Source of the DNA: an uncultured Flavobacteriales bacterium
GTDB taxonomy: Bacteria > Bacteroidota > Bacteroidia > Flavobacteriales_D > Parvicellaceae
NCBI GenBank assembly: GCA_943787725.1
Contig: CALSNM010000022.1
Location: forward strand, 1 to 64,000
Reading direction: 5' to 3'
Length of the DNA stretch: 64,000 nucleotides
This document shows, piece after piece, positions 7,688 through 40,005 of the stretch (positions are counted from its first letter, which is position 1; every line of letters starts with the position of its first letter). The notes under the pieces were generated by a model. The model was not told the DNA's origin and searched no databases. It was given only the letters and a program-made list of their open reading frames with translations. Position numbers and translations under genes: made by a program.

Positions 7688-7897
7688 GTGCAAAGCCGAA
7701 ATCAAATAACAACTATCATCTTTTTTTCCACTCTAATCTTTTTATTCAGTTTTAAAAAAACAGAACTGGTAAGGATCGATGTTGAAGAAATTACGGTAGA
7801 AAAAGGAAGCTATTTGAAAGGAATTTATTTCATAAATGATTCAATAGGTTTTAGTTGTGGAGGAAAAAGAGATTCCAAATTTGTATTTTTACTCTAA
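7688..7897 (+). pseudogene. Short ORF, possible truncated YCF48-like remnant
   Basis: This 69-codon ORF starts at GTG and has a signal-like hydrophobic N-terminus (IIFFSTLIFLFSFKK). Its second half, GIYFINDSIGFSCGG, resembles the first blade of YCF48/photosystem-stability-like beta-propellers that are common as secreted proteins in Flavobacteriales. The propeller then stops after about 69 residues, where a full protein would have over 300. Its TAA stop overlaps the ATG of the next gene (TAATG at 7895-7899). It may be a deletion remnant whose translation now couples to the downstream gene, or a real small protein. The family resemblance is from memory and only one blade is present. Confidence 0.4.
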
Positions 7898-30910: not shown

Positions 30911-32076
30911 GTCAACCACATAAATATCGTTACAATACAACTACTGCACTGATTATAATTGCATACTAGTCGAAATTCTCTTTTGGAGCATTGGATATGC
31001 CACGTATTACTATGTGACAGAAGAAGTGTCCGAATTTCGATTTGAAAATGAATGGGCGCTCTATCTCTTTATGTTAATTCCGTTTATGCTCCTTCTCTTT
31101 TTCCGGAGTAATGTGGTGGAAAAACAAAGCTATAAAGAGATATGCCGATAAGCAGCTCCTACCTTCTTTATTTAGCGGATTACTCCACTGGCAAGTCATT
31201 AATCAAATTTATGCTGCTCCGCTTAGGTGTTTCTTTTTTAATAATCGCCATGGCAAATCCGCAATACGGTGAAAATGAAAAAGATGTAGAAAGCAAAGGC
31301 ATTGATATCATGCTTGCGATTGACGTCAGTAACTCTATGCTGGCGGAGGATCTGTCTGCCTGGTTATAGCCGTTTAAAAATCTCCAAACTTTCGATTGAA
31401 AGTCTAATAGACAAACTGCATGGTGATCATATTGGCATTGTTGTTTTTGCTGGAAGTGCGTATAAACATCTGCCCATAACTCCGGACTACCATGTTGCTA
31501 AAACATTTACTCAGAATGTTACCACAAGAATGATGTCGGCACAAGGTACCGACATAGGGTTAGCCATAGACGAGTGCATGACATCTTTCAATTTTGAAAA
31601 CGGGGCCAATAAAACAATTGTTGTATTCTCTGATGGCGAAGACCATGAAGAACAAGGTATGATTGCCGCTAGAAAAGGCAAGCGAGCTAGGCGTCGTGGT
31701 TCACACCATTGGAATGGGAACCACAAAAGGTGTCCCTATTCCAATATATAAAAGAGGCAAAAAAACAGGAAACAAAAAAGATGAAAACGAAAATACCGTT
31801 TTAACCAAATTAAATGAAGAGAACTTAATCAACATAGCCAATGCCGGACAAGGCTCTTACACAAGAGCAAACGGCATGAGCATCGGCCTAGAAGGATTAA
31901 TTAACCAAATAAATACGATAGAAAAATCAACTTTAAGTAGCGAGAAATACACAGGATACGAAGATCAATTTCAAACCTTTCTAGCAATAGGTTTATTACT
32001 TCTATTAATTGAGCTTTTCATGAATGAAAAGAGAACTAAAATGGTAGATAAATTTAAATTATTCGAAGAAACATGA
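30907..32076 (+). CDS. batB: BatB, VWA domain membrane protein (about five frameshifts)
   Basis: The BatB sequence is readable but split over three frames. Pieces in order are FRFENEWALYLFMLIPFMLL (from about 31033), YADKQLLPSLFSG (about 31140), STGKSLIKFMLLRLG to DVSNSMLAEDL (31185-31355), SRLKISKLSIESLIDKLHGD to EEQGMIAA (31365-31665), and KASELGVVVHTIGMG to the end. The MIDAS motif DVSNSM is present, as are FSDGED and the final helix FQTFLAIGLLLLLIELFM. A start at TTG 30907 would add an extra hydrophobic helix and needs a further shift near 30965; the classic BatB start would be near 31030. Repaired it has about 350 residues. It overlaps batC by ATGA. Confidence 0.82.
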
Positions 32077-36104: not shown

Positions 36105-37232
36105 CTAAGGAGCTTGGTAATCAGGATTTGTTATAAAATTGGGGTCATTAAGCGACAATAAAAATGCTTTTAAATCAATTCTATCTTGCGGGTTAAGCTG
36201 ATTCCCTCCTGATAATACATTTTTCATTAATGGGTCTACAGTTGGCGAATTTTGCAAACCAACAGCATAGTGATTAATGACTTCATCTAATGTTGCAAAC
36301 CTTCCATCATGCATATATGGAGCAGTATAAGACAGATTGCGGAGTGAGGGGGTTTTAAACTTTCCATTATCTGCAGCATTGCCCGTTACTGCGCCTCTCC
36401 CCAAATCTGAAAATGTAGCATCCAATGCATTGTTATGATATATATTATCGGTCCAAAGTGGATTATTTATATCTCCATGACAGTGAAAGCAATCTCCTCC
36501 TGCTTCATCCATAAAAACATTATAACCAGCAAACTCAGAAGGAGTTAAAGAAATCTCACCCCGTATGTATTGATCAAACCTAGAGTCGCCAGAAATTAGC
36601 GTTCTTTCAAATTGAGCAATTGCCATTGTGACCAAATTGGAATCTATTGTCTCCGTTCCAAAAGCAGTATTAAACATAGAAGGATATTCGTCATCTGACT
36701 GCAATTTAGCAACAGCATTGGGCCAGGTTTCATGCATTTCTACGGGGTTAGCAACTGGCTCAAACACCTGATTTTCCAGACCATAAGCCTTTCCATCCCA
36801 AAAGTATGTATCATTGTAATTCCATGCCATATTAAATAAAGGCATTGCATTTCGATCTCCTTCCAACAAGTCAATTCCGGTACTAAACTGATAACCATTA
36901 TCCGTAAAGCCGTTGGCTTGTTTGTGACAATCTGCACAACTCTGAGTATTATTACCAGACAAGATCGGATCATAAAACAATTTTCTTCCCAACAATACAC
37001 CAGCCTCTGTCAGAGGATTATTTGCAGGTATACTTGGTGCCGGTAAAAGTTGTTCAAATTGACTCGGAATATCTAATTCATAAGGGTAATTTACCCCAAC
37101 ATATTTACAAGATCCATTATCCCTATTTGCTGCCGCATCATAATTTAAGGCCGCAGGATCTGTGCATCCTTCATATTTTTTACATGAAGCAAGAGAAAAA
37201 GCAATTATTATTATGAAATAGTTAAATCTCAT
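36105..37232 (-). CDS. MauG/MbnH-type di-heme cytochrome c peroxidase lipoprotein
   Basis: This 375-residue protein has a lipoprotein signal (SLASC, Cys17). Two heme c sites are visible: CADCH (99-103) and CFHCH (248-252). The conserved APYMHDGRFATLDEVI block (about 304-320) is where the second heme's distal ligand lies. This is the bacterial cytochrome c peroxidase/MauG superfamily. Its neighbour encodes an MbnP-family protein, the known substrate type of MbnH, a MauG-like enzyme that oxidises a tryptophan in MbnP. So an MbnH-like role is favoured over peroxide detoxification (inference). The N-terminus after the lipid anchor contains a GCTDPAALNY module shared with the MbnP-like protein. 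Confidence 0.85.
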   Translation of the reverse strand: MRFNYFIIIIAFSLASCKKYEGCTDPAALNYDAAANRDNGSCKYVGVNYPYELDIPSQFEQLLPAPSIPANNPLTEAGVLLGRKLFYDPILSGNNTQSCADCHKQANGFTDNGYQFSTGIDLLEGDRNAMPLFNMAWNYNDTYFWDGKAYGLENQVFEPVANPVEMHETWPNAVAKLQSDDEYPSMFNTAFGTETIDSNLVTMAIAQFERTLISGDSRFDQYIRGEISLTPSEFAGYNVFMDEAGGDCFHCHGDINNPLWTDNIYHNNALDATFSDLGRGAVTGNAADNGKFKTPSLRNLSYTAPYMHDGRFATLDEVINHYAVGLQNSPTVDPLMKNVLSGGNQLNPQDRIDLKAFLLSLNDPNFITNPDYQAP

Positions 37233-37324: not shown

Positions 37325-38170
37325 TTATTGTACAATTCCACCCCAAGAAAACACATTACTTGAATTATCTTTCATCATCATTTGCGCTGTGTAATTTGGC
37401 ATCAACATATTGTTATATACATTTAAGTCCCATGTGGTTGGGTTTTTAAACCATTCTGCAATATTCATATCAATTGAAATTGAAGCATCATTTTCAACAT
37501 TGAAAGAAGTATTTAGTTTAATAAACGCATGGTTATCATGAAAAGTAGTATCTGTAGCTGTTATCTCTCTGGCTCTGCCCATATGGTATGCATATGATAT
37601 TGTATCTGTATTTGTATCTACAAACTTACCTTCAAGTTTCATATTGTGGTAACCACCCCCTAACATATTTGGCCAACTCCAATTTACAGCGTTCAAATCG
37701 GCATAGCTACCAGAAGTATTATTTGTAGAATTAAATCCAAAGTCAAAACCGATTCCTGCATAACTCCCTTCTTCAACATGGTTAGACAAATCAAAAGAAA
37801 GAGAATTAACATCCGACAAGTTAAACAAGTTATAATCCGAAAAGACTAAACTATCTCCATTTGACTTGTACAATTTTATATTCGAAACTAAATATTCTAG
37901 ATGCTCAACACTGAGGGTGTTTCCAGCTTGGTTTGAATAAATTAACTGATTAAAACTCGAACCAGAAACAATTGAACCATCAAAATTATGCTCAAAATTG
38001 AGCGTAATGTGCGGATCTACATGTGGGTCATATGTACAAGTGCCATCGTCTCTTTTAGCATTGACATCATAATTTGAAGCCGCTGCATCTGTGCACCCTT
38101 TCTTTTTACAGCTGGCAATTACCAGAGGTAAAACAGCTAACATTAAAACTATAAAGTTTAATTTTTTCAT
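37325..38170 (-). CDS. MbnP-family lipoprotein
   Basis: This 281-residue protein has a lipobox VIASC followed by a Cys module (GCTDAAASNYD, then RDDGTC). The rest has MbnP-family features: ITLNFEHNFDGS, the segment HLEYLVSNIKLYKSNGDS and NWSWPNMLGGGYHNMKLEG. MbnP proteins are periplasmic, bind copper, and are modified at a tryptophan by the MauG-like MbnH. Trp residues in the NWSW block are candidates for such modification. It overlaps the upstream outer-membrane gene by four bases (ATGA at 38167), and the di-heme gene follows 92 bases after its stop. Confidence 0.82.
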   Translation of the reverse strand: MKKLNFIVLMLAVLPLVIASCKKKGCTDAAASNYDVNAKRDDGTCTYDPHVDPHITLNFEHNFDGSIVSGSSFNQLIYSNQAGNTLSVEHLEYLVSNIKLYKSNGDSLVFSDYNLFNLSDVNSLSFDLSNHVEEGSYAGIGFDFGFNSTNNTSGSYADLNAVNWSWPNMLGGGYHNMKLEGKFVDTNTDTISYAYHMGRAREITATDTTFHDNHAFIKLNTSFNVENDASISIDMNIAEWFKNPTTWDLNVYNNMLMPNYTAQMMMKDNSSNVFSWGGIVQ

Positions 38171-39102
38171 TTCAATAAGTAATTTAATCCAATGATTAAT
38201 CTTGCTTTTGGAACAAGTTGATTCGTCCCATTTAAATTATTTTCAAAAGCAAATTGCACATTAGAGGTTAATAATAAATTTTTCACATTTAACTTAAACC
38301 CTATATCGCTATACCAAGAACTCCCTCCTGTATCAGTATAAATATCCGAGTTTCTATCATAATTTGCTTTTTCATAATAAGTACCATAAAAAGGAACAAA
38401 AGTAACTTCTTTTAGATTGAACATGTAAAAAACGTTAGCCGTTACGTTTGTAGTATTTCCATATTGGTATTTATTTTCATTAGCAGAATTTAATTTAATA
38501 TTTGAATTAAAAATTAATCCAACTTTTTGTTTTCTTACAACATAAGAAAAAGAGCCCAATGCATCCCAACTTCCCGTCCCAGGTTGAAGGTCAAGATTTG
38601 GTTTTCCATAAAGATATTCTCTCTCAATACTCCCTAATGGTATTTTTATGCCAATTCCAACAGTTACTCTATGTACAAATTTAGAAGTGTCTTCTGTAAG
38701 TTTTGTGTTGTAAAGCTGGAAACGTTGCAAAAGCATAGGATCACCTACACCGCTAACATTATATTTAGCAATATCATTAATGTATTGGACATTTTGAACA
38801 AATGGCAACACAATAATAGTGTTCCACCTTTCTTTAAAGTAAAAATTCCCTCTTACTTCATATATGTTGTATTCTTCTCTGACTTGATTCCCTAAAAATC
38901 CAGATTGCGAATTATGGCTTGTGTGTTTTAAATAATTCTGTCCACTTAAATTATAATCCCCCAGCATAGTGCGAGACCGCATAAAAATTCCAAATGAATT
39001 TTTATAATCTCCTGGTGAAATATTTAAGTAAACATTGCAATGCTCACATGCCAACCCGACAAAACTGGTCAAGAGAAAAGTCAATAATAATAACTTTCTC
39101 AT
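38167..39102 (-). CDS. Outer-membrane beta-barrel protein of the MbnP-like operon
   Basis: This 311-residue protein has a signal peptide (residues 1-18, ending GLA). Immediately after it comes CEHCNVYLNISP, a Cys-x-x-Cys pair that could bind a metal. The rest alternates like a transporter-type barrel (VGDPMLLQRFQLYN, VGIGIKIPLGSI, GTGSWDALGSFSYVV) and ends in a beta-signal, LIIGLNYLLK. It is probably the outer-membrane channel of the system encoded with the MbnP-like and di-heme proteins. It is co-translated with the MbnP-like gene. Confidence 0.75.
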   Translation of the reverse strand: MRKLLLLTFLLTSFVGLACEHCNVYLNISPGDYKNSFGIFMRSRTMLGDYNLSGQNYLKHTSHNSQSGFLGNQVREEYNIYEVRGNFYFKERWNTIIVLPFVQNVQYINDIAKYNVSGVGDPMLLQRFQLYNTKLTEDTSKFVHRVTVGIGIKIPLGSIEREYLYGKPNLDLQPGTGSWDALGSFSYVVRKQKVGLIFNSNIKLNSANENKYQYGNTTNVTANVFYMFNLKEVTFVPFYGTYYEKANYDRNSDIYTDTGGSSWYSDIGFKLNVKNLLLTSNVQFAFENNLNGTNQLVPKARLIIGLNYLLK

Positions 39103-39134: not shown

Positions 39135-39523
39135 TTAAGTAAATTGCGGCGGATGAAAAACATCGGATAACTGGCCCAAAGCCAAGTCATTTTTTGAATT
39201 ATTCACAACCTGTAAATTCACTTCAAGATCTCCATCAACCTGACTCGATATTTATCTTGGTAAGAAAGTAACCAAAAGTCAAGCGAAACAGTTGAAGCTT
39301 TCTCAACAGCAGGTACCGAAATCTCAACTTTGGCTAATTGTTTATTCAAATAGCATGCTACCGTTGACAATGCATTTCTACCTTGTCTTTATTTATGCAC
39401 TTTTCGCTAATAATCGTCGTCTTGATGGAAAAGAAAATCAAAAACAACAGAACTCTGCCAAACCGTTCCTGAAAACAGAACAATAAGCAAAAATGACACA
39501 TGTAAAATAAGACGAAATCTCAC
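39135..39523 (-). pseudogene. Small Cys-rich exported protein, frame broken four times
   Basis: No single long frame covers this gene, but its pieces read in order on the minus strand. From GTG 39523: MRFRLILHVSFLLIVLFSG (membrane or signal helix) and SSVVFDFLFHQDDDY. Then SEKCINKDKVEMHC, NGSC and CYLNKQLAKVEISVPA. Last, VDGDLEVNLQVVNN and LSDVFHPPQFT ending at 39135. Joining them needs about four single-base shifts, near 39415, 39371, 39363 and 39240. The repaired product is about 128 residues. The Cys pattern CIN, EMHC, NGSC with KQL resembles small proteins I recall from copper-related loci in Bacteroidota (memory, not checked). It lies 32 bases upstream of the outer-membrane gene on the same strand. 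Confidence 0.6.
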
Positions 39524-39648: not shown

Positions 39649-40005
39649 TTATGAAGAAAAAACTCTCTTTTCCTTAATTCTAGCCGACTTACCTCTTCTA
39701 TTTCTAAGATAAAAGATACGTGATCTACGAACAGCACCTTTCTTTACAATTTTAATTTCTTCCAAAAATGGAGAAGCAACTGGGAAAATTCTTTCAACCG
39801 CAGTATTACCGGACATTTTACGAATCGTAAATGTTTCGTTAACTCCCTCGCCTCTTCTCTGAAGAACTACACCTTGAAAAGACTGTAATCTTTCCTTATC
39901 TCCCTCTTTAATCTTATATGTAACGACTAACGTATCACCAGCACCAAACTTTGGCCAATCTTTCATTTCGTTAATTTCGTTCTCTATTTCTTTAATAATA
40001 TCCAT
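39649..40005 (-). CDS. rplS: 50S ribosomal protein L19
   Basis: This 118-residue protein has the L19 hallmarks: FGAGDTLVVTYKIKEGDKER, LQSFQGVVLQRRGEGVNETFT and VRRSRIFYLRNRRGKSARIKE. It sits at the interface of the 30S and 50S subunits. It is downstream of trmD on the same strand, a conserved arrangement, and is followed by a terminator. Confidence 0.97.
   Translation of the reverse strand: MDIIKEIENEINEMKDWPKFGAGDTLVVTYKIKEGDKERLQSFQGVVLQRRGEGVNETFTIRKMSGNTAVERIFPVASPFLEEIKIVKKGAVRRSRIFYLRNRRGKSARIKEKRVFSS

Follow-up and report, generated by a model that had tools for sequence, protein, structure and literature searches.

What, if anything, is encoded upstream of the MbnP-like operon in a 64,000-nt stretch of DNA from an uncultured Flavobacteriales bacterium (hereinafter, the window), at a site where no reading frame stays open? 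The initial annotation had proposed a small Cys-rich protein hidden in co-linear pieces of the minus strand, broken by four indels and 128 residues long, with a length divisible by three, once repaired. Three-frame reading combined with DNA alignment to relatives confirmed each of these points: the minus strand between positions 39523 and 39135 carries a 128-codon gene, referred to below as the leader, that is broken by four single-base indels (Table 1). The pieces follow one another in the proposed order, from a hydrophobic N-terminus starting at GTG, through ...SEKCINKDKVEMHC and CYLNKQLAKVE..., to ...DLALGQLSDVFHPPQFT and TAA. Compared with the relatives, the window copy contains three extra bases, one near position 39418 and two near 39360, and lacks one near 39231-39239; the 389 nt less the net excess of 2 thus amount to 387 nt, that is, 128 amino acids and a stop codon. 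Of the sequence pieces originally singled out, the co-linear reading held, whereas NGSC did not, since the relatives have C-[QH]-G-A-C at this place. Because no single frame is open across the leader, the ORF list holds only its fragments, so that the gene is indeed missed by automated callers, as had been anticipated.

Table 1. Positions of the leader, its pieces, its neighbours and the other frame-breaking sites in the window
Feature	Position	Strand	Basis or remark
Leader gene, frame-broken	39135..39523	-	GTG at 39523, TAA at 39137-39135; 128 aa if repaired
N-terminal membrane/export helix piece, VRFRLILHVSFLLIVLFSGTVWQSSVVFDFLFHQD	39419..39523	-	Three-frame reading; structure prediction for an orthologue
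Metal-binding-like block, first part, ISEKCINKDKVEMHC (in the family, CxN-x7-CxGxC)	39367..39417	-	Invariant columns in 59 sequences
Remainder of the Cys block (CYLNKQL) with the larger part of the linker	39245..39357	-	Three-frame reading
C-terminal piece, DVFHPPQFT and stop, with the arrest-like motif F[HR]PP	39135..39230	-	Three-frame reading; motif counts
Predicted outer-membrane beta-barrel, 311 aa, N-terminal CxxC	38167..39102	-	Starts about 32 nt past the leader stop
MbnP family lipoprotein-like protein	37325..38170	-	PF20243, E 1.8e-28, 100 bits (cut-off 27)
MbnH-like di-haem enzyme	36105..37232	-	PF03150, E 1e-55
Ribosomal protein L19-like, upstream neighbour	39649..40005	-	Own reading of the translation
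Indels relative to G003 in six further genes	14684, 24133, 24765, 30961-31670, 33218, 34299, 50725, 58365, 58482		Window positions

The search for homologues of the repaired product and the comparison of its neighbours, both suggested in the initial annotation, showed that this is a genuine gene. Each of the other three genomes of the genus contains one full-length, intact match of the read-through protein (67-77% amino acid identity, E 1e-55 to 1e-62), and weaker matches occur across the order. In two of these genomes, G002 and G003, the leader is flanked as in the window, with L19-like and TrmD-like genes upstream and the 311-aa barrel, MbnP and MbnH genes downstream; in the third, G001, the contig stops after the leader. 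Although the window copy lacks a long open frame, such matches and the conserved gene order make it exceedingly improbable that unrelated short ORFs merely appear co-linear by chance. Furthermore, substitutions in the leader bear the mark of purifying selection, with dN/dS of about 0.2 (0.22 between the intact copies). The G003 copy (locus L032, near 7800-7850) is one T short in a T-run near its start, which shifts the GTG start of the G001 and G002 genes out of frame; either another start codon is used in G003 or this is a further sequencing error.

Why, then, is the frame of the window copy broken? Of the 51 genes of G003 with counterparts in the window, 7 are frameshifted in the latter, the leader included. 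The six others, among them purL-like, YebC-like and BatD-like genes (names read from the sequences), are broken by single-base and, in one case, two-base indels, and one of the frameshifted genes has six extra bases within about 1.2 kb. The source assembly consists of 29 contigs and is 82% complete. Alternatively, the window copy alone could be a genuine recent pseudogene, leaving the operon without its leader, a scenario that is compatible with the explanation of the family proposed below. Four indels within 389 nt are locally dense, the majority of them fall outside homopolymers, and a family copy with six stops lies upstream of MbnP in another genome, G053. However, dN/dS between the broken copy and the intact copies (0.21-0.27) is equal to that among intact copies, and the window carries single-base indels in six other genes, including the purL-like and YebC-like ones. 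Because constraint is unchanged and these other genes are affected as well, we consider pseudogenization the less probable of the two explanations, though a real contender, and attribute the broken frame most likely to consensus errors in the assembly. It also follows that the number of genes counted on this contig should not be relied on and that, in indel-bearing assemblies, such leaders are lost to gene callers. The degraded family member of G053 (G053:C16:91258-91494), with its six in-frame stops immediately upstream of an MbnP gene, may represent a genuine pseudogene of the leader.

Downstream of the leader, the MbnP and MbnH-like genes adjoin each other. For the latter, TIGR04039 (MbnH) is the best NCBIfam match, although its score of 239 bits is under the cut-off of 363 bits. 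The MbnP/MbnH pair (PF20243, TIGR04039) thus represents the downstream partners of the window operon and not the leader itself; the paper describing MbnP and MbnH makes no mention of Bacteroidetes (PMC3621798). The 311-aa protein has no match in Pfam or NCBIfam, and its AlphaFold model is a barrel (pTM 0.76), for which the nearest folds in the PDB are FapF and the COG4313 channel; this barrel is a second unnamed family of the MbnP/MbnH/leader operons. The L19-like neighbour lies outside the conserved cassette in other families.

The leader itself belongs to a family that is large, uncatalogued and unnamed. Using a 34-member alignment, we detected family members in 53 of 100 relatives and in 156 of 395 genomes sampled across Bacteroidota, often several per genome; that is, about four in ten of the sampled genomes of the phylum carry a family that Pfam and NCBIfam leave unnamed. 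A scan of named genomes with a six-member alignment yielded at least 80 loci, nearly all of them in Flavobacterium or Flavobacteriaceae; F. aquatile, F. limicola, F. buctense and F. gillisiae are among the species in which the locus is intact. In sequence searches, the family corresponded to no entry of Pfam, NCBIfam or PDB; the matches encountered in Pfam, NCBIfam, PADLOC and PDB sequences were isolated chance ones, such as those of one or two members to a DAN domain (7e-4).

Despite a mean column identity of 25% across a 59-sequence alignment, seven positions are invariant, namely, C42, N44, C52, G54, C56, P124 and P125 (numbering of the G002 protein). The family layout comprises an N-terminal membrane helix, the block CxN-x7-CxGxC, an unconserved linker and F[HR]PP located 2-5 residues before the stop; most members are 118-150 aa long, with start codons unrefined. 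CxGxC, which is a CxxxC motif, is present in 38 of 39 non-redundant members. The final PP lies no more than 8 residues from the end in 71 of 72 diverse members, mainly in the context FHPP, FRPP or PPP, and only 2.1% of 899 other ORFs at the same loci have PP within the last ten residues. Among the matches listed, F[HR]PP followed by two to four residues forms the C-terminus of 77 of 79 Flavobacteriaceae-type members. The initial annotation had taken the Cys, Met and His content as fitting copper binding; the Cys block is indeed invariant, but the family is not notably rich in Met or His outside the conserved block.

The distance between the last Cys and PP is nearly constant, with a range of 63-76 residues and a median of 67 in diverse members, 67.7 +/- 2.8 residues in 38 sequences less than 40% identical to one another, in which identity of the linker is 21%, and 69.1 +/- 0.8 residues (range 67-73) in 79 Flavobacteriaceae-type members among the matches listed. 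A constant distance combined with free sequence is what would be required of a tether connecting a sensor site to a stalled ribosome. In the AlphaFold model of an intact orthologue, residues 3-32 form an N-terminal helix (pLDDT 90-95), which could be an uncleaved anchor, short helices surround the Cys block, and the linker and tail are predicted to be disordered (pLDDT 53-59).

To place the family in its genomic context, we compared the genes that follow the leader at 72 loci: MbnP, MbnH or the barrel were found at 40, a TonB receptor at 22, SCO1 at 3, and no recognised copper gene at 7, some of these at contig ends. Thus, the association of similar small proteins with copper loci of Bacteroidota, which the initial annotation had suggested, is substantiated, most family loci preceding MbnP/MbnH/barrel genes or genes for OprC-type TonB copper receptors. 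The order of the genes past the leader varies (barrel-MbnP-MbnH at 15 loci, MbnP-MbnH-barrel at 12, or a TonB receptor), but the leader remains first, and a copper-operon gene is present within three places upstream of it at only 4 of the 72 loci. A downstream gene on the same strand lies within 1000 nt at 68 of 71 loci (gaps of -8 to 665 nt). Conversely, of the 118 MbnP hits of the phylum sample, 46 were preceded on the same strand by a family member no more than 5 kb away, in most cases within 450 nt, where about 0.07 would be expected; none of the 118 is preceded by a member on the opposite strand. For one receptor type, TIGR01778 (TonB-copper) is the best NCBIfam match, below the cut-off of that model; receptors of this type carry CPNRMDP, resembling the CxxxM copper site reported for OprC (PMC11836926).

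In two genomes, at loci L121 and L114, leaders occur in tandem, the first heading a gene for an 89-91 aa protein and SCO1 (in L121, also superoxide dismutase), and the second heading MbnP-MbnH-barrel. In addition, a lipoprotein-like protein of 127-153 aa, often containing FHEHW, is encoded in the same operons at 13 loci (for instance, L038:5562-5948, L043:1581-2027 and L055:5339-5722). It was initially grouped with MbnH by single linkage, but stricter clustering parted the two, and the one member searched had no match in Pfam or NCBIfam.

Two characterized leader proteins provide the closest parallels. CruR of Bordetella pertussis (Bp2923, DUF2946/PF11162) heads a TonB-transporter operon and senses copper through CXXC; its C-terminal RAPP is required for expression, copper triggers Rho-dependent termination, and its homologues head OprC, SCO and MbnPH operons (PMC9426467). 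In vitro, CruR stalls ribosomes (PMC12992588). CutF of Rhodobacter capsulatus, which combines CxxxC with a C-terminal proline motif and senses extracellular copper via export, is encoded ahead of a multicopper oxidase, with expression raised by copper (PMC9973294).

Like CruR, the members of the new family are small, poorly structured proteins of the exported type, encoded first in operons with TonB (including OprC-type), SCO or MbnPH genes, and they share with it a Cys metal motif, PP beside the C-terminus and a conserved spacing between the two. The details are different: where CruR has CXXC and RAPP, the family has CxN-x7-CxGxC and F[HR]PP; the spacing is about 67 rather than 45 residues, the gap to the next gene is often much shorter than the 162 nt of CruR, and the family occurs in Bacteroidota. 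The DUF2946 profile (PF11162) matched none of the 59 members, nor of the 34, and a search of 148 Bacteroidota genomes found nothing in the genome of the window; with motif and spacing differing as well, the family is set apart from DUF2946 on all three counts. A survey of RAPP/RGPP leaders found none ahead of copper-related genes in Bacteroidota (PMC12992588), which is in keeping with a lineage in which PP has another context.

The family also resembles CutF, with which it shares a hydrophobic N-terminal segment. CxGxC is a CxxxC, PP lies within 15 residues of the C-terminus, the window gene encodes fewer than 150 aa, and a same-strand gene follows within 1000 nt, all properties by which the CutF-like set was delineated. 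That set further calls for a Sec signal peptide, and the predicted helix at residues 3-32 may be either such a peptide or an uncleaved anchor; moreover, as with CruR and CutF, copper homeostasis operons are led. Since most of these formal rules apply and 40% of the CutF-like set, normalised by proteome, comes from Bacteroidota (PMC9973294), the Bacteroidota members of its list D may include part of the leader family, unnamed. Unlike CutF, the family has about 67 residues between the motifs, compared to 45, and a third invariant Cys (CxN), and no partner of the CutO type was seen beside its members.

Because layout, leader position and copper-type neighbours match those of CruR and CutF, we infer that the family functions as a cis-acting copper switch of the arrest-peptide kind, and assign to this reading a probability of roughly 65%. 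By analogy, the N-terminal helix would start export of the nascent chain, the CxN-x7-CxGxC block would encounter copper, and the ribosome would pause at F[HR]PP, which lies two to five residues short of the stop, the pause setting the expression of the outer-membrane barrel, MbnP and MbnH or, elsewhere, of the TonB copper receptor. Given that the genes behind the leader appear to serve copper uptake, control would be expected to have the sign known from CruR, with scarce copper causing stalling and switching the genes on, and bound copper causing release and switching them off. Because Cys and PP are about 67 residues apart, compared to 45 in CruR and CutF, and the tunnel takes up about 30 residues and the membrane 17, as assumed by the CutF authors (PMC9973294), the Cys block would be clear of both ribosome and translocon when PP is decoded, which favours an encounter with copper on the periplasmic side. 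The binding of copper and the stalling, as well as the direction of control and the site of sensing, are all putative, deduced from these parallels. PP alone is weak evidence of arrest, because most natural RAPP-like sequences tried did not stall (PMC10987492) and F[HR]PP is not RAPP/RGPP. Arrest can also differ between species.

The invariant Cys triplet, the N-terminal helix and the copper-type neighbours would also fit a mature periplasmic protein, anchored in the membrane, that acts in trans as a copper carrier or assembly factor, its Cys block receiving copper from the barrel or from the TonB receptor and passing it on; CutF, too, was first read as a chaperone (PMC9426467). However, such a carrier leaves unexplained the invariant PP beside the stop, the fixed spacing over an unconserved, disordered linker and the strict first position amid permuted genes. 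These same three features, which the initial annotation had not pointed out, make a cis-acting leader likelier, and a carrier appears rather unlikely. Even less probable, in our opinion, is a leader that answers to a signal other than copper, for instance, the state of export or a different metal: many arrest peptides whose ends resemble RAPP report on Sec/YidC (PMC10987492) and some CutF-like clusters are tied to nickel/cobalt genes (PMC9973294), but the invariant Cys block and the presence of MbnP/MbnH, TonB-copper-like receptors and SCO1 downstream speak against this possibility.

With regard to how a copper-responsive pause would reach the downstream genes, the RNA just past the stop (z -1.62) was slightly more structured than that at the remaining junctions on the same strand (z -1.25; p 0.02). 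A conserved stem-loop at this place was considered and dismissed: z was -1.6 compared to -0.15 for in-gene controls, yet barely above other gene junctions. In many cases, little sequence separates the stop from the next gene, for instance, about 32 nt in the window. Given the short gaps and marginal structure, neither Rho termination nor a CutF-type stem-loop receives specific support.

The more ambitious proposal, that these are phylum-wide arrest peptides of Bacteroidota, set apart by an arrest motif of their own, F[HR]PP, and by a longer reach, about 67 residues, which sense extracytoplasmic copper during export and switch outer-membrane copper-uptake operons, has in our view about even chances. 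If true, it would close a gap in the surveys based on RAPP/RGPP, where no copper-gene leaders were seen in Bacteroidota. A copper-sensing arrest peptide would extend nascent-chain metal sensing to this phylum, with a measurable geometry, and would suggest a way in which Flavobacterium-type bacteria may adjust the uptake of copper with no transcription factor dedicated to it. It would also provide a sequence marker of copper-acquisition operons, including those with the poorly understood MbnP/MbnH pair and the unnamed barrel.

Weak matches to the DUF2946 model were identified in other Bacteroidota, at loci L149 and L146. These are small proteins with His/Cys-rich stretches that end in SRAPPQQA (L149) and RGPPSYFLAV (L146) and are possible leaders of the RAPP/RGPP type in the phylum.
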